Shown piece by piece: positions 55,144 to 63,443 of a stretch of DNA of 64,000 bases. The DNA is from Candidatus Faecalibacterium gallistercoris (GTDB taxonomy: Bacteria > Bacillota > Clostridia > Oscillospirales > Ruminococcaceae): NCBI GenBank assembly GCA_019116585.1, contig DXBJ01000005.1:1-64000 (forward strand), in the 5' to 3' direction. The notes under the pieces were generated by a model. That model was not told where the DNA came from and did not search any database. It worked only from the letters and a program-made list of their open reading frames with translations. The first letter of the stretch is position 1. Every line of letters begins with the position of its first letter. The position numbers were made by a program, and so were the translations under genes.

Positions 55144-55662
55144 ATGGGTCAGCCTGCATACGATTACAACTACAACGGCATCACTTTAGGACAGGCAGTC
55201 CGCCGCCCGGCCCCCCAGCCCGAGCGGCGGCCCGACCTCCGGGTGGAGCAGGGCGGCAAAGCCGCCATCTCGCCCCTGCGCGCCATGATGCAGCACGGCG
55301 TGCAGATCCTTGCGCTGGGGCTTCTGGCCGGGCTGTCGGTGGCGCTGCTGTTCAGCGAGGCCCGCATCGTCGAGCTGAGCGGGGACATCCGCCAGGCGAA
55401 GGCGGCCCTGATCTCGGCCCAGAGCCAGAACGATTATTACACCACCACCCTCAACGTCCAGTCCAGCATTTCCAATGTGGAGAGCGTGGCCGGCCGCCTG
55501 GGCCTGATGAAGATCGACGACAGCCAGATCACCTACATCCGCCTGGACGACCAGAGCGTCCTGACCCGCCGCGAGTCGGCGGTGGAAAAATGGACCGATA
55601 CCCTTCAGGCCGGCGTGACGTCCCTGCTGCGGACCATGGACCCGCCGGCGGACGCCGAATAA
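55144..55662 (+). CDS. FtsL-like cell division protein
   Basis: Single TM then a coiled-coil/FtsL-like segment, 'ESVAGRLGLMKIDDSQITYIRL'; position between rsmH and a division PBP. Confidence 0.75.
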   Translation: MGQPAYDYNYNGITLGQAVRRPAPQPERRPDLRVEQGGKAAISPLRAMMQHGVQILALGLLAGLSVALLFSEARIVELSGDIRQAKAALISAQSQNDYYTTTLNVQSSISNVESVAGRLGLMKIDDSQITYIRLDDQSVLTRRESAVEKWTDTLQAGVTSLLRTMDPPADAE

Positions 55663-55680
55663 AACGATCATACCCGGGGA

Positions 55681-55708
55681 AGCGTGCGTCTGCGCACGCT
55701 TTTTCGGT
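55681..55708 (+). terminator. Intra-operonic terminator-like hairpin
   Basis: AGCGTGCG-tctg-CGCACGCTTTTTCGGTTT: 8-bp stem, tetraloop, T-run. Confidence 0.75.
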
Positions 55709-55747
55709 TTCTGACGCTCCGGCAGGGGCGCCAGGCAGGAGAAGCGA

Positions 55748-58240
55748 ATGAAAGAAGCGATCAACCGGCGCCGGCGGGGGACCATGCTCCGCCGTGACCC
55801 CGACTCGGCCCCCATCCCCCGCAAGACCAGGAAATGGGGCCTGGCCGTATCCATCGGCCTGGTGCTGCTGGGCACCGCCATCGTGGTCAACAGCCTTTAC
55901 GATATCCAGATCCGCAACGGCGAGATGTACAGCCGCTACGCCAGCGACCAGCAGCTGCTGGACACCACCATCCAGGCCACCCGGGGCGAGATCTACGACG
56001 CCACCGGCAAGGTGCTGGCCTCCACCAGCGTGGTGTGGGACATCTGGTGCGACCCCAGCTATTCCACCGCACTCTACGACAGCCAGACCATCACCTCCAC
56101 CGACCCTGCCACCGGCGGGGAAGTGGAGTCCACCGTCCGCACCCTGGACGCCGCGGCCTGCGGCGAGATCAGCCGGGAGCTGACCCTCCGCCTTCTGTCG
56201 GGGGACGGCGTCAGCCTGGACAAGGTGGACACCACCTCCCAGGCGTATGCCCAGCAGTACGAGGCCATCTATGCGGCCCTGAGCAAGATCGACTCCTCGT
56301 ACCAGGTGCTGGCCGAAAAGGTCAACAACGCCGTCAAGGAGTCCATCGAGCAGTACGTCTCCGACCGCAACGCCATCAAGGGCAGCGGCCGGCTGTCCCT
56401 GTCCTCGTCCCGCACCTACCAGCGCAATTATCCCTACGGGGCGTTTGCGGCGTCGGTGCTGGGCTTTACCAATGCGGACGGGGAAGGCTTTTACGGGCTG
56501 GAAAAATCCTACGACGATATCCTGTCGGGAACGGACGGCCGGACCGTCACCATCCGCAACGCCCGGGGCAACGCCATCGCGGACGGCGGCGCCGTCACCT
56601 ACGACGCCAAGGACGGCGACAGCCTGGTGCTGACGCTGGACACCACCATCCAGGAAGTGGTGGAAAAATACCTGAACGAGGCCATCGCCGCCAACACCGT
56701 CGAGAACCGGGGCTGCGCCGTCGTGATGGACGTCAACACCGGGGGCATCCTGGCCATGGCTTCCAAGCCGGATTTCGACCCCAACAACCCCAACGACTAC
56801 ACCCCCATCCAGGCGTATCTGGAAGAGCTGGTCCGGGCCGAGCCCGAGCTGTACGGCATCTATCTGAAAAACGAGGACGGCACCTTTGTCACCGACGAAA
56901 ACGGCGACCGGATCCTGGACCCCGACGCCGATTACTCGGGCTATTTCCGGGACATCATGTGGAAAAACAAGACCATCACCGAGCTGTACTATCCCGGCAG
57001 CGTCTTTAAGGTCATCACCGCGGCCATGGGGGTGGACTCGGGCAACGCCACCTACAACACCACCTTCAACTGCAGCGGTGCCTATGCCGTGGCCAAGGAG
57101 ACCTACCACTGCGCCGGGCGCCACAGCCACGGCACCCAGAACCTGGCCGACGCCCTGCTGAACAGCTGCAACATCTACTTCATCCAGCTGGGCCAGCGGA
57201 TCGGGGTCCAGACCTTTTACGACTACTTCAAGGCCTTTGGCTTTACCGAGCGCACCGGCGTGGACCTGCCCAACGAGACCAGCTACATGCAGTACTACAC
57301 CGACCAGAACATGGGCGAGGTGGAGCTGGCCTCCTCCGCTTTTGGCCAGTCCATGGCGGTGACCCCCCTGCAGGTGTGCACGGCGGTGGCGGCGTCGGTC
57401 AACGGCGGCTATCTGGTCACCCCCCATGTGGTGGACCAGATCGTGGACGCCAACGGCAACGTGGTGGAGCAGATCGGGCCGGGCGTCCGCCGCCAGGTCA
57501 TCAGCGGCAGCGCCAGCGAGACCATCCGCCAGATCATGGAGCACGAGGTGGGCGACGGCACCACCCGCAGCGGCGGCTACCGCGCCTATGTGGCGGGCTA
57601 CCGCATCGGCGGCAAGTCGGGCACTTCCGAGCTGCTGAACATGGACCGGCGCGCCGACGGCGACTACAAAAAGGCGGCCTCCTTCGTGGCGGTGCTGCCC
57701 GCCGACGACCCCCAGATCCTGGTCTATGTCATGCTGGACGACCCCAACAACGTCAACAGCGACTACTCCTCGGTGCTGGCGGCTCCGGTGGTGGGCAACA
57801 TCATCAGCGAGATCGCGCCCTACCTGGGGGTGGCCACCGACGGCATCGACCGCAGCGGCCAGACCGTCAAGGTGCCCAACCTGATCGGCACCGAGTGGAG
57901 CAACGCCCAGGTCAACCTCAATATCCGGGGCCTGGCCCATCACCTGGTGGAAAGCGAAGGCGGCAACACCGCCGCCCCCGTCACCTGGCAGTACCCCACG
58001 GCGGGCGCCGAGGTGCCCAGCGGGACCACCATCTACCTGTACACCGACACCTACACCGGCCAGACCGCCCAGGTGCCCGACCTGACCGGCAAGAGCGCCG
58101 ACTTTGCCCGCCAGATGCTGCAGGCGGCCGGCTTCAACTGCATCGTCGAGGGCAGCGCCTCCGGCCTGGTGCAGGCCCAGAGCGAGGCCCCCGGCTCCAC
58201 CGCCCAGCTGGGCACCATCGTGACCATCACCTGCGGGTGA
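55748..58240 (+). CDS. Class B penicillin-binding protein with two PASTA domains (SpoVD/PBP2-like)
   Basis: 'YYPGSVFKVITAAM' (SxxK), 'LLNSCNIYF' (SxN), 'GGKSGTSEL' (KSG), C-terminal 'VKVPNLIGTEWSNAQVNLNIRGL' and 'AQVPDLTGKSADFARQMLQAAGF'. Confidence 0.94.
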   Translation: MKEAINRRRRGTMLRRDPDSAPIPRKTRKWGLAVSIGLVLLGTAIVVNSLYDIQIRNGEMYSRYASDQQLLDTTIQATRGEIYDATGKVLASTSVVWDIWCDPSYSTALYDSQTITSTDPATGGEVESTVRTLDAAACGEISRELTLRLLSGDGVSLDKVDTTSQAYAQQYEAIYAALSKIDSSYQVLAEKVNNAVKESIEQYVSDRNAIKGSGRLSLSSSRTYQRNYPYGAFAASVLGFTNADGEGFYGLEKSYDDILSGTDGRTVTIRNARGNAIADGGAVTYDAKDGDSLVLTLDTTIQEVVEKYLNEAIAANTVENRGCAVVMDVNTGGILAMASKPDFDPNNPNDYTPIQAYLEELVRAEPELYGIYLKNEDGTFVTDENGDRILDPDADYSGYFRDIMWKNKTITELYYPGSVFKVITAAMGVDSGNATYNTTFNCSGAYAVAKETYHCAGRHSHGTQNLADALLNSCNIYFIQLGQRIGVQTFYDYFKAFGFTERTGVDLPNETSYMQYYTDQNMGEVELASSAFGQSMAVTPLQVCTAVAASVNGGYLVTPHVVDQIVDANGNVVEQIGPGVRRQVISGSASETIRQIMEHEVGDGTTRSGGYRAYVAGYRIGGKSGTSELLNMDRRADGDYKKAASFVAVLPADDPQILVYVMLDDPNNVNSDYSSVLAAPVVGNIISEIAPYLGVATDGIDRSGQTVKVPNLIGTEWSNAQVNLNIRGLAHHLVESEGGNTAAPVTWQYPTAGAEVPSGTTIYLYTDTYTGQTAQVPDLTGKSADFARQMLQAAGFNCIVEGSASGLVQAQSEAPGSTAQLGTIVTITCG

Positions 58241-58363
58241 GGGCGCAGGCGCCGCGGCAAACGTGAAGGATGCGCGAAAACCGCACAGCTCTACTTGCCA
58301 CGGGTGCACCGTACAATTTATAATAGGAATATCTGGCAATATACAGAAAGGGGATAGGAACGA

Positions 58364-59770
58364 ATGGAAAAGATCGCAGCAAAAACCCTTCTGGCAGGGC
58401 TGACGCCTGCCGGAACCATCGACGGGGACCAGATGGTCTCCCTGGTGACCACCGACAGCCGGGAGGTGAAGCCCGGGTGCATTTTTGTGGCGTTCCCCGG
58501 CGAGCGCTTCGACGGGCATGATTTTGCCGCCCGGGCGCTGGAGGCCGGGGCGGCCTGGGTGGTGCTGAACCACCCGGTGGAGGGCGTGCCCCAGGAAAAG
58601 ACCATCCTCTGCCCCGACAGCTACCAGGCCATGATGCAGATGGGCGCGAACTACCGGGCCCAGTTTGCCCCCAAGGTGGTGGGGGTGACCGGCAGCGTGG
58701 GCAAGACCACCACCAAGGAGTTCTGCGCCACGGCCCTCAGCGCCCTGGGCAGCACCATCAAGACCGAGGGCAACCAGAACAACGAGCTGGGCCTGCCCCG
58801 CACCCTGTTCCAGATCGACGCCGGCACCCGGTACGCCGTGGTCGAGATGGGGATGAACCATGCCGGCGAGATCAGCCGGCTGTCCCGCTGCGCCCGGCCC
58901 GACGTGGGCGTCATCACCTGCATCGGCCTGTCCCATATCGGCAACCTGGGCAGCCAGGAGAACATCTGCAAGGCCAAGCTGGAGATCTGCGACGGGATGC
59001 CCGAGGGCGCGCCCCTGGTGCTGAACTACGACGACCCCTTCCTGCGCAAGGCGGAGCTGCCCGCCCATGTCCGGCCCGTCTGGTACAGCATGACCAGCCA
59101 GGAGGCCGACGTTTGCGCCTCCGCCATCCGGCAGGAGAACGACGGCATGAGCTTTTTGCTGGACGACGACGAAAACGGCTGCTTCATGGTCCACATCCCG
59201 GCGCTGGGCCGCCACAATGTGGCCAACGCCCTGGCGGCCTACTGCGCCGCCAGCCAGCTGGGCCTGACCCCCAAGGAGGCCATCCAGCAGATGAAGCAGT
59301 TCCGCCAGACCGGGATGCGCCAGCATATGCTGGACTGCCACGGGGTGCGGATCATCGAGGACTGCTACAACGCCAACCCCACCAGCATGCGGGCGGCCCT
59401 GGCCATGTTCAAGGATTATCCCTGCAAGCGCCGGTTCGCCGTGCTGGCCGATATGCTGGAGCTGGGGGACGAGGCCCGCACCGAGCACGAGGAGCTGGGC
59501 CGCCTGGTGGCCCAAAGCGCCGTGGACGTCCTGATCACCTACGGCGAGCTGGCCCACCGCACCGCCACCGTGGCCGCCGCCAAGGGGGTGCGCACCATCC
59601 ACGCCCACAATTACGACGAGATCGCGGGCTTCCTGGCCAAGGCCACCGCCCCGGGGGACGCCGTCCTGTTCAAGGGCAGCCGGGCCATGGCGCTGGAAAA
59701 CGCCGTCGAGCGGCTGCAGGCCCTGAAGGACGCCCAGGCCCTTGCCGGCGAAAGCGGCGAACAATCCTGA
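58364..59770 (+). CDS. murF: UDP-N-acetylmuramoyl-tripeptide--D-alanyl-D-alanine ligase
   Basis: 'VVGVTGSVGKTTTKEFCATALSA', 'GNQNNELGLPRTL', 'EMGMNHAGEISRLS', 'IIEDCYNANPTSMRAALAMF'. Confidence 0.95.
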   Translation: MEKIAAKTLLAGLTPAGTIDGDQMVSLVTTDSREVKPGCIFVAFPGERFDGHDFAARALEAGAAWVVLNHPVEGVPQEKTILCPDSYQAMMQMGANYRAQFAPKVVGVTGSVGKTTTKEFCATALSALGSTIKTEGNQNNELGLPRTLFQIDAGTRYAVVEMGMNHAGEISRLSRCARPDVGVITCIGLSHIGNLGSQENICKAKLEICDGMPEGAPLVLNYDDPFLRKAELPAHVRPVWYSMTSQEADVCASAIRQENDGMSFLLDDDENGCFMVHIPALGRHNVANALAAYCAASQLGLTPKEAIQQMKQFRQTGMRQHMLDCHGVRIIEDCYNANPTSMRAALAMFKDYPCKRRFAVLADMLELGDEARTEHEELGRLVAQSAVDVLITYGELAHRTATVAAAKGVRTIHAHNYDEIAGFLAKATAPGDAVLFKGSRAMALENAVERLQALKDAQALAGESGEQS

Positions 59771-59788
59771 CATTCGGAGAGTACACAC

Positions 59789-60802
59789 ATGATACGTTTT
59801 GCCTTGATCGTGGCGTCGGTGCTGGGGTTTGCCCTGACCGCCGCGGTCGGGAATCTGCTGACGCCCCTGCTGCGGGCCCTGGTCCCGCCGGAAAAGGAAA
59901 ACGCCCCTGACCCCAAACCCGGGCAGGACCCCCCCGAGCCCTCTGCGCCCCGGGGCCTGCCCACCATGGGCGGCCTGTGTTTCATCATCGGGACCCTGGC
60001 CGCCGTGGGGGTGGGCTGGGCGGTGGTCTGCATGGTCCAGCCCGAGCTGCTGGGCGGCGGCCTGACCGGCCGGCTGATGCTGGGGCTGGGGGGCGGCTTC
60101 CTGCTGGGGGCGGCGGGCCTGGCCGACGATCTGGCCCGGCTGCGGCCCCGGCAGGTGCTGGGCCTGCGCACCGGGCCCCGCCTGGCACTGGAAGCCCTGG
60201 CTGCCGCCGGCACGGTGGCGGCCCTGTGGCTGGGGGGCTGCATGCCCACCGGCCTGACCCTGCCCCTGGCGGGCTACTGCGAGCTGGGCGGGGCGGCGGC
60301 CCCTCTGTGGGCGCTGCTGCTGCTGGCCCTGGCCGAATCGGCCCGGCTGGCCGGCTCGGCCGACGGGGCGGCGGCCGGCGCGTCCTTTGTGGCCATGCTG
60401 GGCCTGATGGGGGCCGAGACGATCCTGGGCTTTTTCCCGCTGGCCGTGCTGCCGGCGGCTCTGGCCGGGGCGCTGATGGCCTTTCTGCTGTGGAACTTTT
60501 ACCCCGCGCGGCTGCTGCCCGGGGCGGTGGGCTGCCTGTTCCTGGCCGGGGCGGTGGGGGCCATCCCCCTGTCCATCGGCCGGGGGGATCTGGCTTTGCT
60601 GCTGGGGCTGCCCTTTTGGGCCGAGGGCCTGGCCGCCCTGCTGCAGGGCATCTGGCGCCGCGCAAAGGGCCGCCCCCTGTTCAAGGCCGGCAGCCTGGAC
60701 GCCTGGCTGCGCCGGAAGGGCGGGCCGGTGTCGGTGTTTTATGTTTTTTGCGCGCTGGCGCTGGCGGGCGCTCTGGCCGCCCTGCGCACCGCGCAGCTGT
60801 AA
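59789..60802 (+). CDS. MraY-like membrane protein, probably catalytically inactive
   Basis: Retains 'GLPTMGGLCFI' and 'LADDLARLRPRQVLGL' but has 'RLAGSADG' for NLTDGLDG, 'WNFYPARLLPGAVGCLFLAG' for FNxYPAxxFMGDxGSLxLGG, and lacks the HHH motif; dcw position between murF and ftsW. Confidence 0.85.
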   Translation: MIRFALIVASVLGFALTAAVGNLLTPLLRALVPPEKENAPDPKPGQDPPEPSAPRGLPTMGGLCFIIGTLAAVGVGWAVVCMVQPELLGGGLTGRLMLGLGGGFLLGAAGLADDLARLRPRQVLGLRTGPRLALEALAAAGTVAALWLGGCMPTGLTLPLAGYCELGGAAAPLWALLLLALAESARLAGSADGAAAGASFVAMLGLMGAETILGFFPLAVLPAALAGALMAFLLWNFYPARLLPGAVGCLFLAGAVGAIPLSIGRGDLALLLGLPFWAEGLAALLQGIWRRAKGRPLFKAGSLDAWLRRKGGPVSVFYVFCALALAGALAALRTAQL

Positions 60803-60868
60803 GGCCCCCGCATGGGGCAGTCGAAGATGCCCGGGCAAGGCGGCCCGGGCGGAAAGGTAGGTGTTAGG

Positions 60869-62203
60869 ATGGCAGTGGCAAGACGCCGCACGGACCCCAA
60901 CGGCCCGGTGGTGGTCCTCCAGCGGGACCCCGGGCCCTGGACCCCGCTGACCATCGGCTGGCTGGCAACGCTGGGGCTGATCGTCGTGTTCGGGCTGGTG
61001 ATGCTGTTCAGCGCCAGCTATACCACGGGCTATCTCCGGATGGGGGACAGCTATCACTACATCAAGTCCCAGGCCCTCTACGCCCTGATCGGGGTAGGGG
61101 TGATGTTCCTGTTTTCGTATTTTGACCTGCGGTTCATCCGCAAGTTCGTGTGGGCAGGCTACCTGATCAGCCTGGTGCTGCTGGTGGCGGTCCTGTTCTG
61201 CGAGCCCCTCAACGGCTGCCGCCGCTGGCTGAACATCAAGGGCCTGCCCACCCTGCAGGTGTCGGAGCTGGTCAAGTTTGAGATGATCCTGCTGACGGCC
61301 CATCTGGCCAGCCGCACCCCCCACCCGGTCGCGCCCCAGGAGGGGCCCGGCGCACGCCGCAGGGTGGGCAGCGTGGGGGGCTGGCTGTACCAGAAGATCG
61401 TCCGGGAGCTGGCCGTGCCCCTGCTGCCCCTGGTGCCGGTGGTGCTGCTGCTGGCCCTGGAGCCCCATATGTCGGGCATCGTGCTGATGTGCGCCATCGT
61501 GGGCAGCATCCTGCTGCTGAACGGCAGCGGCGGCATCATCACCTACGGCGGGGCCCTGGGGGCGGGCTTCCTGCTCGAGACGGTGCTGTCCCACATCGAC
61601 TCGATCCCCTACCTGCAGGAGCGTCTGGACGGCTGGACCAGCGACCTGGACAAGATGACCGACCAGACCCTGCAGAGCCTGTACGCCATCGGCTCGGGCG
61701 GGCTGACCGGCCTGGGCCTGGGCAACAGCGTCGAAAAACAGCTCTGGCTGCCCGAGTGCACCAACGATTTTATCTTCAGCGTGGTGTGCGAGGAGCTGGG
61801 GTTTGTGGGGGCGGTGGTGGTCATCCTGCTGTTCGTCCTGCTGCTGGTGCAGGGGTTCCTGATCGCCTTCCAGGCGGCCGACCGGTTCAGCACCCTGGTG
61901 GGGGTGGGCATCATGGCCCAGGTGGGCTGGCAGGTGTTCTGCAATGTGGCGGTGGTCACCAACACCCTGCCCAACACCGGCATCAGCCTGCCCTTCTTCT
62001 CCTCAGGCGGCACCAGCCTGCTGCTTTTGATGGCGGAGATGGGGGTCATGATCCACATCGGCCGCAACGGCGCCCGGGCCGCACAGGCCCGCCGCGCCGC
62101 CCACGAGGCCCGGCAGGAGCAGGCCCAGCGGGCTGCAGCCCGCCCGCCCATCACCCTGGACAGCGTCCGGCGGCAGGCTTCCGGCCACCGCGCGGGGATC
62201 TGA
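60869..62203 (+). CDS. ftsW: FtsW/SpoVE-type SEDS glycosyltransferase
   Basis: 'VMLFSASY', 'GCRRWLNIKGLPTLQVSELVKFEM', 'GLTGLGLGNSVEKQLWLPECTNDFIFSVVCEELGFVGAV', 'NTLPNTGISLPFFSSGGTSLL'. Confidence 0.95.
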   Translation: MAVARRRTDPNGPVVVLQRDPGPWTPLTIGWLATLGLIVVFGLVMLFSASYTTGYLRMGDSYHYIKSQALYALIGVGVMFLFSYFDLRFIRKFVWAGYLISLVLLVAVLFCEPLNGCRRWLNIKGLPTLQVSELVKFEMILLTAHLASRTPHPVAPQEGPGARRRVGSVGGWLYQKIVRELAVPLLPLVPVVLLLALEPHMSGIVLMCAIVGSILLLNGSGGIITYGGALGAGFLLETVLSHIDSIPYLQERLDGWTSDLDKMTDQTLQSLYAIGSGGLTGLGLGNSVEKQLWLPECTNDFIFSVVCEELGFVGAVVVILLFVLLLVQGFLIAFQAADRFSTLVGVGIMAQVGWQVFCNVAVVTNTLPNTGISLPFFSSGGTSLLLLMAEMGVMIHIGRNGARAAQARRAAHEARQEQAQRAAARPPITLDSVRRQASGHRAGI

Positions 62204-62315: not shown

Positions 62316-63443
62316 ATGCGCGTATTGATCGCTGCCGGCGGTACGGCCGGCCATATCAACCCGGCCCTTGCCATTGCGGGGGCGCTGCGGGCGGCCGACC
62401 CCGCCGCCGAGATCCATTTTGCCGGCCGCAAAGAGGGGATGGAATACCGTCTGGTGACCCGGGCGGGCTATCCCTTCCATCACATCGAGGTGACGGGCTT
62501 CCAGCGGCGGCCCTCGCTGGAAAACCTGCGCCGCAATGCCGTCACCGTGTGGAACCTGGCCCGCTCGGGGCCCCGGTGCCGCGCCATCCTGCGGGAGGTG
62601 GAGCCCGATCTGGTCATCGGGTGCGGGGGCTACGTCTCCGGGCCGGTGGTCCGGGCGGCGGCCAAACACGGCATCAAGACCGCCATCCATGAGCAGAACG
62701 CCTTCCCCGGCGTGACCAACAAGCTGCTTGCCCCGGAGGTGGATCTGGTTTTCGCCGCGGTGCAGGCCGGGGCCGACCGGCTGGGCGCCCCCGGCAAGAC
62801 CGTGGTGGTGGGCAACCCCGTCCGGCCCGAGGTCTTTGCCTGGGCCCGCCGCCGGGAGGAAGCCCGGGCCAACCTCCACGCCGGGGACCGGACGGTGATC
62901 CTCTCCTTCGGGGGCAGCCTGGGGGCCCGCCGCATCAACGAGGTGGTGGCCAGCCTGTGCGCCTGGGAGCAGAAGGAAAAGCGGAACATCCTGCACCTGC
63001 ACGCCACCGGCCAGTACGGGGTGCAGCTGTTCCAGGACCTGGAAAAGGAAAAGGGCTTTGCCCGGGGAGAGGATCTGGTGGTGCGGGAGTACATCGACAA
63101 TATGCCCGAGCTGCTGGCCGCGGCCGACCTGGTCATCAGCCGGGCGGGCGCCCTGACCCTGGCCGAGCTGGAGGCCGCCGGCCGCGCGGCCATCCTGATC
63201 CCCAGCCCCAACGTGGCCGAAAACCATCAGTACTACAACGCCCTGGAGCTGGCCAAGGTGGACGCCGCCGTGGTCATTGAGGAAAAGGACCTCACCGGCG
63301 AAAAGCTGGTGGCGGAGGTCCGCACCCTGCTGGACGGGGAGGGCAGGCTGGCCCAAATGGGCCGGAACGCCCGCACCCTGTCGGTGGACGACAGCCTGGA
63401 CCGGATCGTGGCCCGGCTGCAGACCCTGGTGCACACCCCGTAA
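62316..63443 (+). CDS. murG: UDP-N-acetylglucosamine--N-acetylmuramyl-(pentapeptide) pyrophosphoryl-undecaprenol N-acetylglucosamine transferase
   Basis: 'MRVLIAAGGTAGHINPALAIAGAL', 'VIGCGGYVSGPVVRAAAKHGIKTAIHEQNAFPGVTNKLL', 'VISRAGALTLAEL'. Confidence 0.95.
   Translation: MRVLIAAGGTAGHINPALAIAGALRAADPAAEIHFAGRKEGMEYRLVTRAGYPFHHIEVTGFQRRPSLENLRRNAVTVWNLARSGPRCRAILREVEPDLVIGCGGYVSGPVVRAAAKHGIKTAIHEQNAFPGVTNKLLAPEVDLVFAAVQAGADRLGAPGKTVVVGNPVRPEVFAWARRREEARANLHAGDRTVILSFGGSLGARRINEVVASLCAWEQKEKRNILHLHATGQYGVQLFQDLEKEKGFARGEDLVVREYIDNMPELLAAADLVISRAGALTLAELEAAGRAAILIPSPNVAENHQYYNALELAKVDAAVVIEEKDLTGEKLVAEVRTLLDGEGRLAQMGRNARTLSVDDSLDRIVARLQTLVHTP

Follow-up and report, generated by a model that had tools for sequence, protein, structure and literature searches.

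How is lipid I made in a bacterium whose dcw cluster carries, at the mraY position, an MraY-like gene without the catalytic motifs, and why has that gene been kept? MraY is regarded as universal, single-copy and essential, and as a target for antibiotics. The window analysed here, a stretch of 64,000 nucleotides from Candidatus Faecalibacterium gallistercoris (contig DXBJ01000005.1), contains such a gene. It was pointed out in an original prediction made from the DNA alone.

An MraY fold between murF and ftsW

The ORF begins with an ATG at 59789 and its stop codon ends at 60802. It is placed tightly between murF, which ends at 59770, and ftsW, which starts at 60812, in the Faecalibacterium dcw cluster. 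The genes of this region are:

55748..58240, + strand, class B PBP (FtsI/SpoVD type) with PASTA domains (ORF and profile matches)
58364..59770, + strand, murF, upstream neighbour (TIGR01143, 406 bits)
59789..60802, + strand, degenerate MraY (dMraY), 337 residues, predicted MraY fold without catalytic residues
60812..62203, + strand, ftsW, downstream neighbour (FTSW_RODA_SPOVE, 242 bits; longest ORF, start codon uncertain)
62316..63443, + strand, murG (TIGR01133, 268 bits, over the cut-off)

Profiles recognize murF, ftsW and murG as family members, in line with the earlier view that all three are intact. dMraY itself matches Pfam Glycos_transf_4 (PF00953; 53.5 bits, E 3.6e-14) and mraY TIGR00445 (65.7 bits, E 5e-18) without reaching the equivalog cut-off of 192 bits, and phmmer aligns it with the solved MraY structures 5jnq, 8g01 and 4j72. 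An AlphaFold model built from an alignment of 15 Faecalibacterium sequences has a pLDDT of 73 and a pTM of 0.75. Search for structural similarities with Foldseek gave MraY structures as best PDB matches (query TM 0.66-0.80, E 1e-9), followed by DPAGT1. These profile and model matches indicate that dMraY has the MraY fold, and the kinship first noticed from framework motifs is not due to chance. Its close relatives in public genomes all belong to Faecalibacterium. Compared with TIGR00445 MraY (4J72, 5JNQ, 8G01), dMraY shares the fold, the length, the murF-ftsW position, the DD pair, YPA and the helix framework. In contrast, it has no Mg2+ Asp, no NxxD pocket and no HHH, and scores 66 bits against the cut-off of 192.

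Residues were read in an alignment with 35 intact MraY of the family, to which the Aquifex numbering was tied through PDB alignments:

59960..59974, + strand, PTMGG block, residues 58-62, kept (alignment)
60125..60130, + strand, D113-D114, the kept Asp pair, Aquifex D117/D118 (alignment)
60137..60139, + strand, R117 for the Lys of DDYxK (Aquifex K121); R in 24/25 Faecalibacterium
60179..60181, + strand, R131 for an invariant Lys (Aquifex K133, phosphate-site residue); R in 25/25 Faecalibacterium
60335..60373, + strand, E183-A195, the former NxxNLTDGLDGLA pocket, now E183..R186..G189..D192 (alignment)
60431..60496, + strand, helix 215-236, under the strongest constraint of all segments (pN/pS 0.04), running into WNFYPA
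60524..60526, + strand, A246 for the Mg2+-coordinating Asp (Aquifex D265) (alignment)
60698..60706, + strand, D304-A305-W306 for HHH (Aquifex H324/H325/H326); W306 fixed in 25/25 Faecalibacterium

The motif readings of the original prediction were all right: PTMGG and DD are kept; NLTDGLDGLA, the Asp of GD and HHH are lost. Within the PTMGG block, T59 is the kept equivalent of Aquifex T75. The DD pair varies within the genus, as it reads ED in 5 of 25 Faecalibacterium sequences. In the pocket, R186 replaces N190 and G189 replaces D193, D196 is kept as D192, and both E183 and R186 are fixed (25/25).

In MraY, Mg2+ is bound by D265, and the DDD motif has been reported to be critical (PMC6606608). 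D117, K121, K133 and D265 were proposed to surround the phosphate of C55-P (PMC4790310, where D177 is printed, taken here as D117). W253, F254 and Q260 touch C55-P at the dimer interface (PMC9046198); we equated WNFYPA of dMraY with these three positions by counting from D265. dMraY conserves its phosphate side (D114, R117 and R131) and the interface helix but has lost the side for UDP-sugar and Mg2+. Because D265 is lost together with N190 and HHH, translocase activity is very unlikely, and dMraY, judged from its residues, would be catalytically inactive.

A second MraY-type protein outside the dcw cluster

The original prediction placed an active MraY elsewhere in the genome. A search of this genome (2.34 Mb, 93% complete) for other PF00953 proteins returned a single one, MraY2, on contig C38 (L001:1243-2211). 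It has YLDDAS, NCTDGVDGL and LMGDAGS, so that the catalytic motifs DD, NxxDGxDG and GD are all present as expected. In its C-terminal loop, PLHDH, the first and third His are kept and the middle one is Asp. Among the orthologues, DD, N-C-x-D-G-x-D-G, MGDAGS and H-D are kept throughout, and the third His of H-D-H varies only in G019 and G084. MraY2 scores 91.2 bits with mraY TIGR00445 (cut-off 192, not reached), 58 with archaeal MraY and 47 with WecA, and its PDB matches are MraY structures only. Like MraY, it belongs to the PNPT superfamily, with an MraY-like motif order and C-terminal loop. It differs by HDH for HHH, by [PA]RG[AS]G or similar for PTMGG, and by its location outside the dcw cluster. 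We infer that MraY2 makes lipid I.

No conserved cell-wall partner was found in the MraY2 gene neighbourhoods across genera. In several genera, MraY2 adjoins phosphatidylserine synthase and decarboxylase-like genes (L211, L213, L216, L217, L221, L226), and in g21 a convergent class B PBP gene lies beside it; these neighbours were named by eye.

Three states of the dcw copy

At least one high-scoring MraY2 copy is present in 30 of 31 Faecalibacterium genomes, nearly all of which have exactly two PF00953 genes. In the remaining genome, the fragmented G018, MraY2 lies in pieces at contig ends. In the family survey, 38 of 199 genomes have no MraY above the cut-off; four of these look like assembly problems and the other 34 fall in 12 genera. 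G102, G189 and G216, where no MraY of any kind was detectable, were treated as assembly gaps. G181 was rejected as a genome without MraY, its canonical gene being split over contig ends.

The dcw loci were retrieved and the ORF between murF and ftsW was read in each. Three states were observed. First, genera g15, g32 and g51 have an intact dcw MraY as well as MraY2; in one g32 genome of this state, MGN already replaces MGD. Second, Faecalibacterium and nine other genera have a decayed dcw ORF with MraY2. Uninterrupted decayed copies were found in 50 genomes of 10 genera, the whole Faecalibacterium genus being counted, and one copy is split. The split copy (G024, L074:6971-8010) consists of two overlapping frames, either by a real frameshift or by an assembly error in a genome that is 79% complete. 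Third, in g45 and g55 (six genomes, 99% complete) the dcw copy is deleted and murF abuts ftsW. MraY2 is the only PF00953 protein of these genomes, and the peptidoglycan pathway is kept. Since they retain murF, ftsW and murG, they provide the strongest argument for MraY2 as the lipid I synthase.

Wherever the dcw copy was found decayed or deleted, the genome possesses MraY2, except for G076 (L183), which has the decayed dcw copy only, MraY2 being absent from a 99% complete assembly. An assembly gap is likely in this case, because the gene adjoining MraY2 in related species is also missing.

No decayed lineage retains the pocket Asn or the middle His. The Mg2+ Asp is gone from all these lineages except G019, without a common replacement. 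G019 is an intermediate within Faecalibacterium that keeps GDTGS and LTDGIDG and has ED for DD and HAE for HHH. The decayed copies of g27, g47, g52 and g86 (L175, L177, L180, L183, L185-L187, L192, L193, L195, L198) have an insertion of 8 residues where the NLTDGLDG loop used to be. H-x-H is mostly kept there, the pocket often has an acidic residue, and Glu or Gln often stands for the Mg2+ Asp. These copies form a distinct sub-type, whose activity might be kept or changed.

Repeated decay and origin of MraY2

On a tree of concatenated PBP, MurF, FtsW and MurG, decayed lineages adjoin canonical-only lineages: Faecalibacterium and G046, g83 and G108, g21 and G119, and g23 and G070 (the last with a support of 83 only). 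A single clade of decayed genomes was rejected by the AU test (p 2.1e-4), and parsimony requires at least five changes for the decay. As a reservation, an independent-pairs test gave five pairs for and none against, with a p of 0.06. That decay had occurred several times was not foreseen in the original prediction.

The MraY2 tree conflicts with the concatenated tree, for example in placing g21 within the g45/g55/g86 group and in joining a copy from a different family, f22, to g15. This conflict suggests horizontal spread of MraY2. Built quickly and with some forks left open, this tree does not settle the direction of transfer. Outside the family, in the order sample, MraY2 matches of at least 390 bits occur only in two f22 genomes. 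In both (G434 and G376; L235, L236), MraY2 stands beside an intact dcw MraY; it likely came there by horizontal transfer.

Purifying selection on dMraY

Over 12 Faecalibacterium pairs, the pooled pN/pS of dMraY is 0.273 (989/3514 synonymous and 659/8579 nonsynonymous; Fisher p 9e-177), close to that of ftsW (0.254). The corresponding values are 0.179 for murF, 0.120 for murG and 0.107 for MraY2, which evolves more slowly than dMraY. In nearly all pairwise comparisons of close relatives, the decayed copy has a dN/dS of 0.07-0.36; one pair of very low divergence gives 0.5. Within dMraY, the N-terminal loop is least constrained (pN/pS 0.63) and helix 215-236 is almost frozen. Moreover, 31 residues unlike those of most intact MraY are nevertheless fixed in 24 or all of the 25 Faecalibacterium sequences; in or near the old active site, they include R131, E135, E183, R186 and W306. 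Catalytic residues are thus lost across the genus in an ORF that stays under purifying selection, as had been proposed. This selection and the fixed derived residues make dMraY look functional.

Could dMraY still be a slowly decaying relic, kept by translational coupling only and without function as a protein? The genes abut closely, and the degree of decay varies by lineage, with G019 as an intermediate; the gene is deleted in g45 and g55, and the frame of G024 is split. However, a mere spacer would leave its amino acids unconstrained. A pN/pS of 0.27 is not neutral, one helix is at 0.04, derived residues are fixed, and against the one split frame stand 50 open ORFs over 10 genera. We therefore rejected dMraY as a pseudogene, the alternative under which the original prediction would have failed, and consider a relic unlikely. 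Instead, we conclude that dMraY is a recurrently evolved, retained pseudoenzyme.

Does dMraY have an activity?

The original prediction also allowed for changed chemistry. A gain of catalytic activity, perhaps towards a different lipid-linked substrate, could be read from the charged residues E135, E183, R186 and R131 fixed in or near the old pocket in Faecalibacterium, and from the pocket-loop insertion in g27, g47, g52 and g86. Yet the lineages have no new motif in common, the Mg2+ ligand is lost everywhere except in the intermediate G019, and two genera have deleted the gene. This weakens the idea, and we hold a gain of activity to be decidedly improbable.

dMraY might also still synthesize lipid I by means of an unusual active site, while MraY2 would make another lipid-linked sugar, destined for a different polymer. 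The operon position, the kept DD and D192, the purifying selection and G076, which appears to have the dcw copy only, are consistent with this. On the other hand, the Mg2+ Asp, the pocket Asn and HHH are gone, with replacements that differ per lineage; six g45/g55 genomes have MraY2 alone; and it is MraY2 that retains the motif set and evolves more slowly. A dMraY that still synthesizes lipid I is very improbable.

A probable retained pseudoenzyme and a proposed displacing enzyme

The reading that we prefer, and regard as likely, combines a vertically inherited pseudoenzyme retained for a non-catalytic role with a horizontally spread MraY2 that makes lipid I. dMraY would descend vertically from an ordinary dcw MraY. 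Lipid I would come from the divergent MraY2, apparently spread horizontally and encoded outside the dcw cluster. With MraY2 in the genome, the dcw copy would no longer have required its catalytic residues and would have lost them, independently in several Ruminococcaceae lineages including Faecalibacterium. What kept dMraY would be a non-catalytic role that MraY still had to fill. The original interpretation, an active MraY elsewhere and a retained dcw copy, gains support from both MraY2 and the purifying selection; a non-catalytic part as carrier-lipid binder or regulator, which it suggested for dMraY, would fit. On balance, we lean towards the wider statement that MraY2 repeatedly displaced the dcw MraY in gut Ruminococcaceae and that the displaced protein mostly became a conserved, non-catalytic protein of cell-wall assembly.

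What this role might be is the least certain part. Interactions of MraY with itself, MurG, Mur ligases, FtsQ and PBPs have been reported (PMC8566892, PMC4929429). Tentatively, dMraY could act as a membrane scaffold in a MurF-MurG-FtsW assembly, with its binding of undecaprenyl phosphate or lipid I retained; it could do so either as a homodimer or together with MraY2. A scaffold or carrier-lipid-binding role is perhaps somewhat short of an even chance. The deletions in g45 and g55 imply that the role is not essential everywhere. R340 is critical for MraY dimerization (PMC9046198); an argument from this dimer-interface residue was dropped, as R340 is not conserved in this family, not even in those intact members that were inspected.

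Structures of MraY show T75 and H325 in contact with inhibitors (PMC6606608). Both positions are changed in MraY2, which may therefore differ in its response to nucleoside antibiotics. That dMraY serves as a decoy for MraY-targeting agents (protein E-type phage lysis proteins, nucleoside antibiotics), with a resistant MraY2 lacking T75 and having Asp at H325, is extremely improbable, since dMraY itself has lost most of the inhibitor pocket.

Precedents and implications

In the literature searched, which covered few subscription papers, we found no earlier account of a catalytically dead or displaced MraY. Planctopirus limnophila likewise has two mraY genes per genome, mraY1 and mraY2 (PMC10632474). 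According to the accessible part of that report, both single deletions are viable and most peptidoglycan genes are non-essential, unlike the present case, and that part does not describe catalytic decay. Pseudoenzymes of bacterial envelope biogenesis are already known; the dead or displaced MraY is the new part. Inactive LytM factors (PMC8416486) and bacterial pseudokinases (PMC12599244) are conserved dead enzymes acting as regulators, envelope biogenesis included. As far as the accessible portions of these two sources go, they differ in having hydrolase or kinase folds, with neither a membrane sugar-1-phosphate transferase nor replacement by a second copy.

In the whole genus Faecalibacterium, which comprises major gut commensals, and in several genera related to it, lipid I synthesis appears to depend on another enzyme, changed at residues that MraY inhibitors contact. 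Annotation based on position would call the wrong gene mraY in these genomes. The dead dcw MraY, repeatedly retained, amounts to a natural separation-of-function experiment. If our reading is true, the structural role of MraY is separated from its chemistry, and its part in a MurF-MurG-FtsW assembly becomes directly testable.

Two minor features of the window were noted. An antisense open frame of 2021 residues (55529-61594, - strand) spans the dcw genes; it was rejected as a gene, being expected from the high GC codon bias. Just 5' of murF, a promoter-like TTGCCA-18-TATAAT (11/12) lies at 58295-58324 on the + strand, where a murF-dMraY-ftsW-murG transcript may begin.
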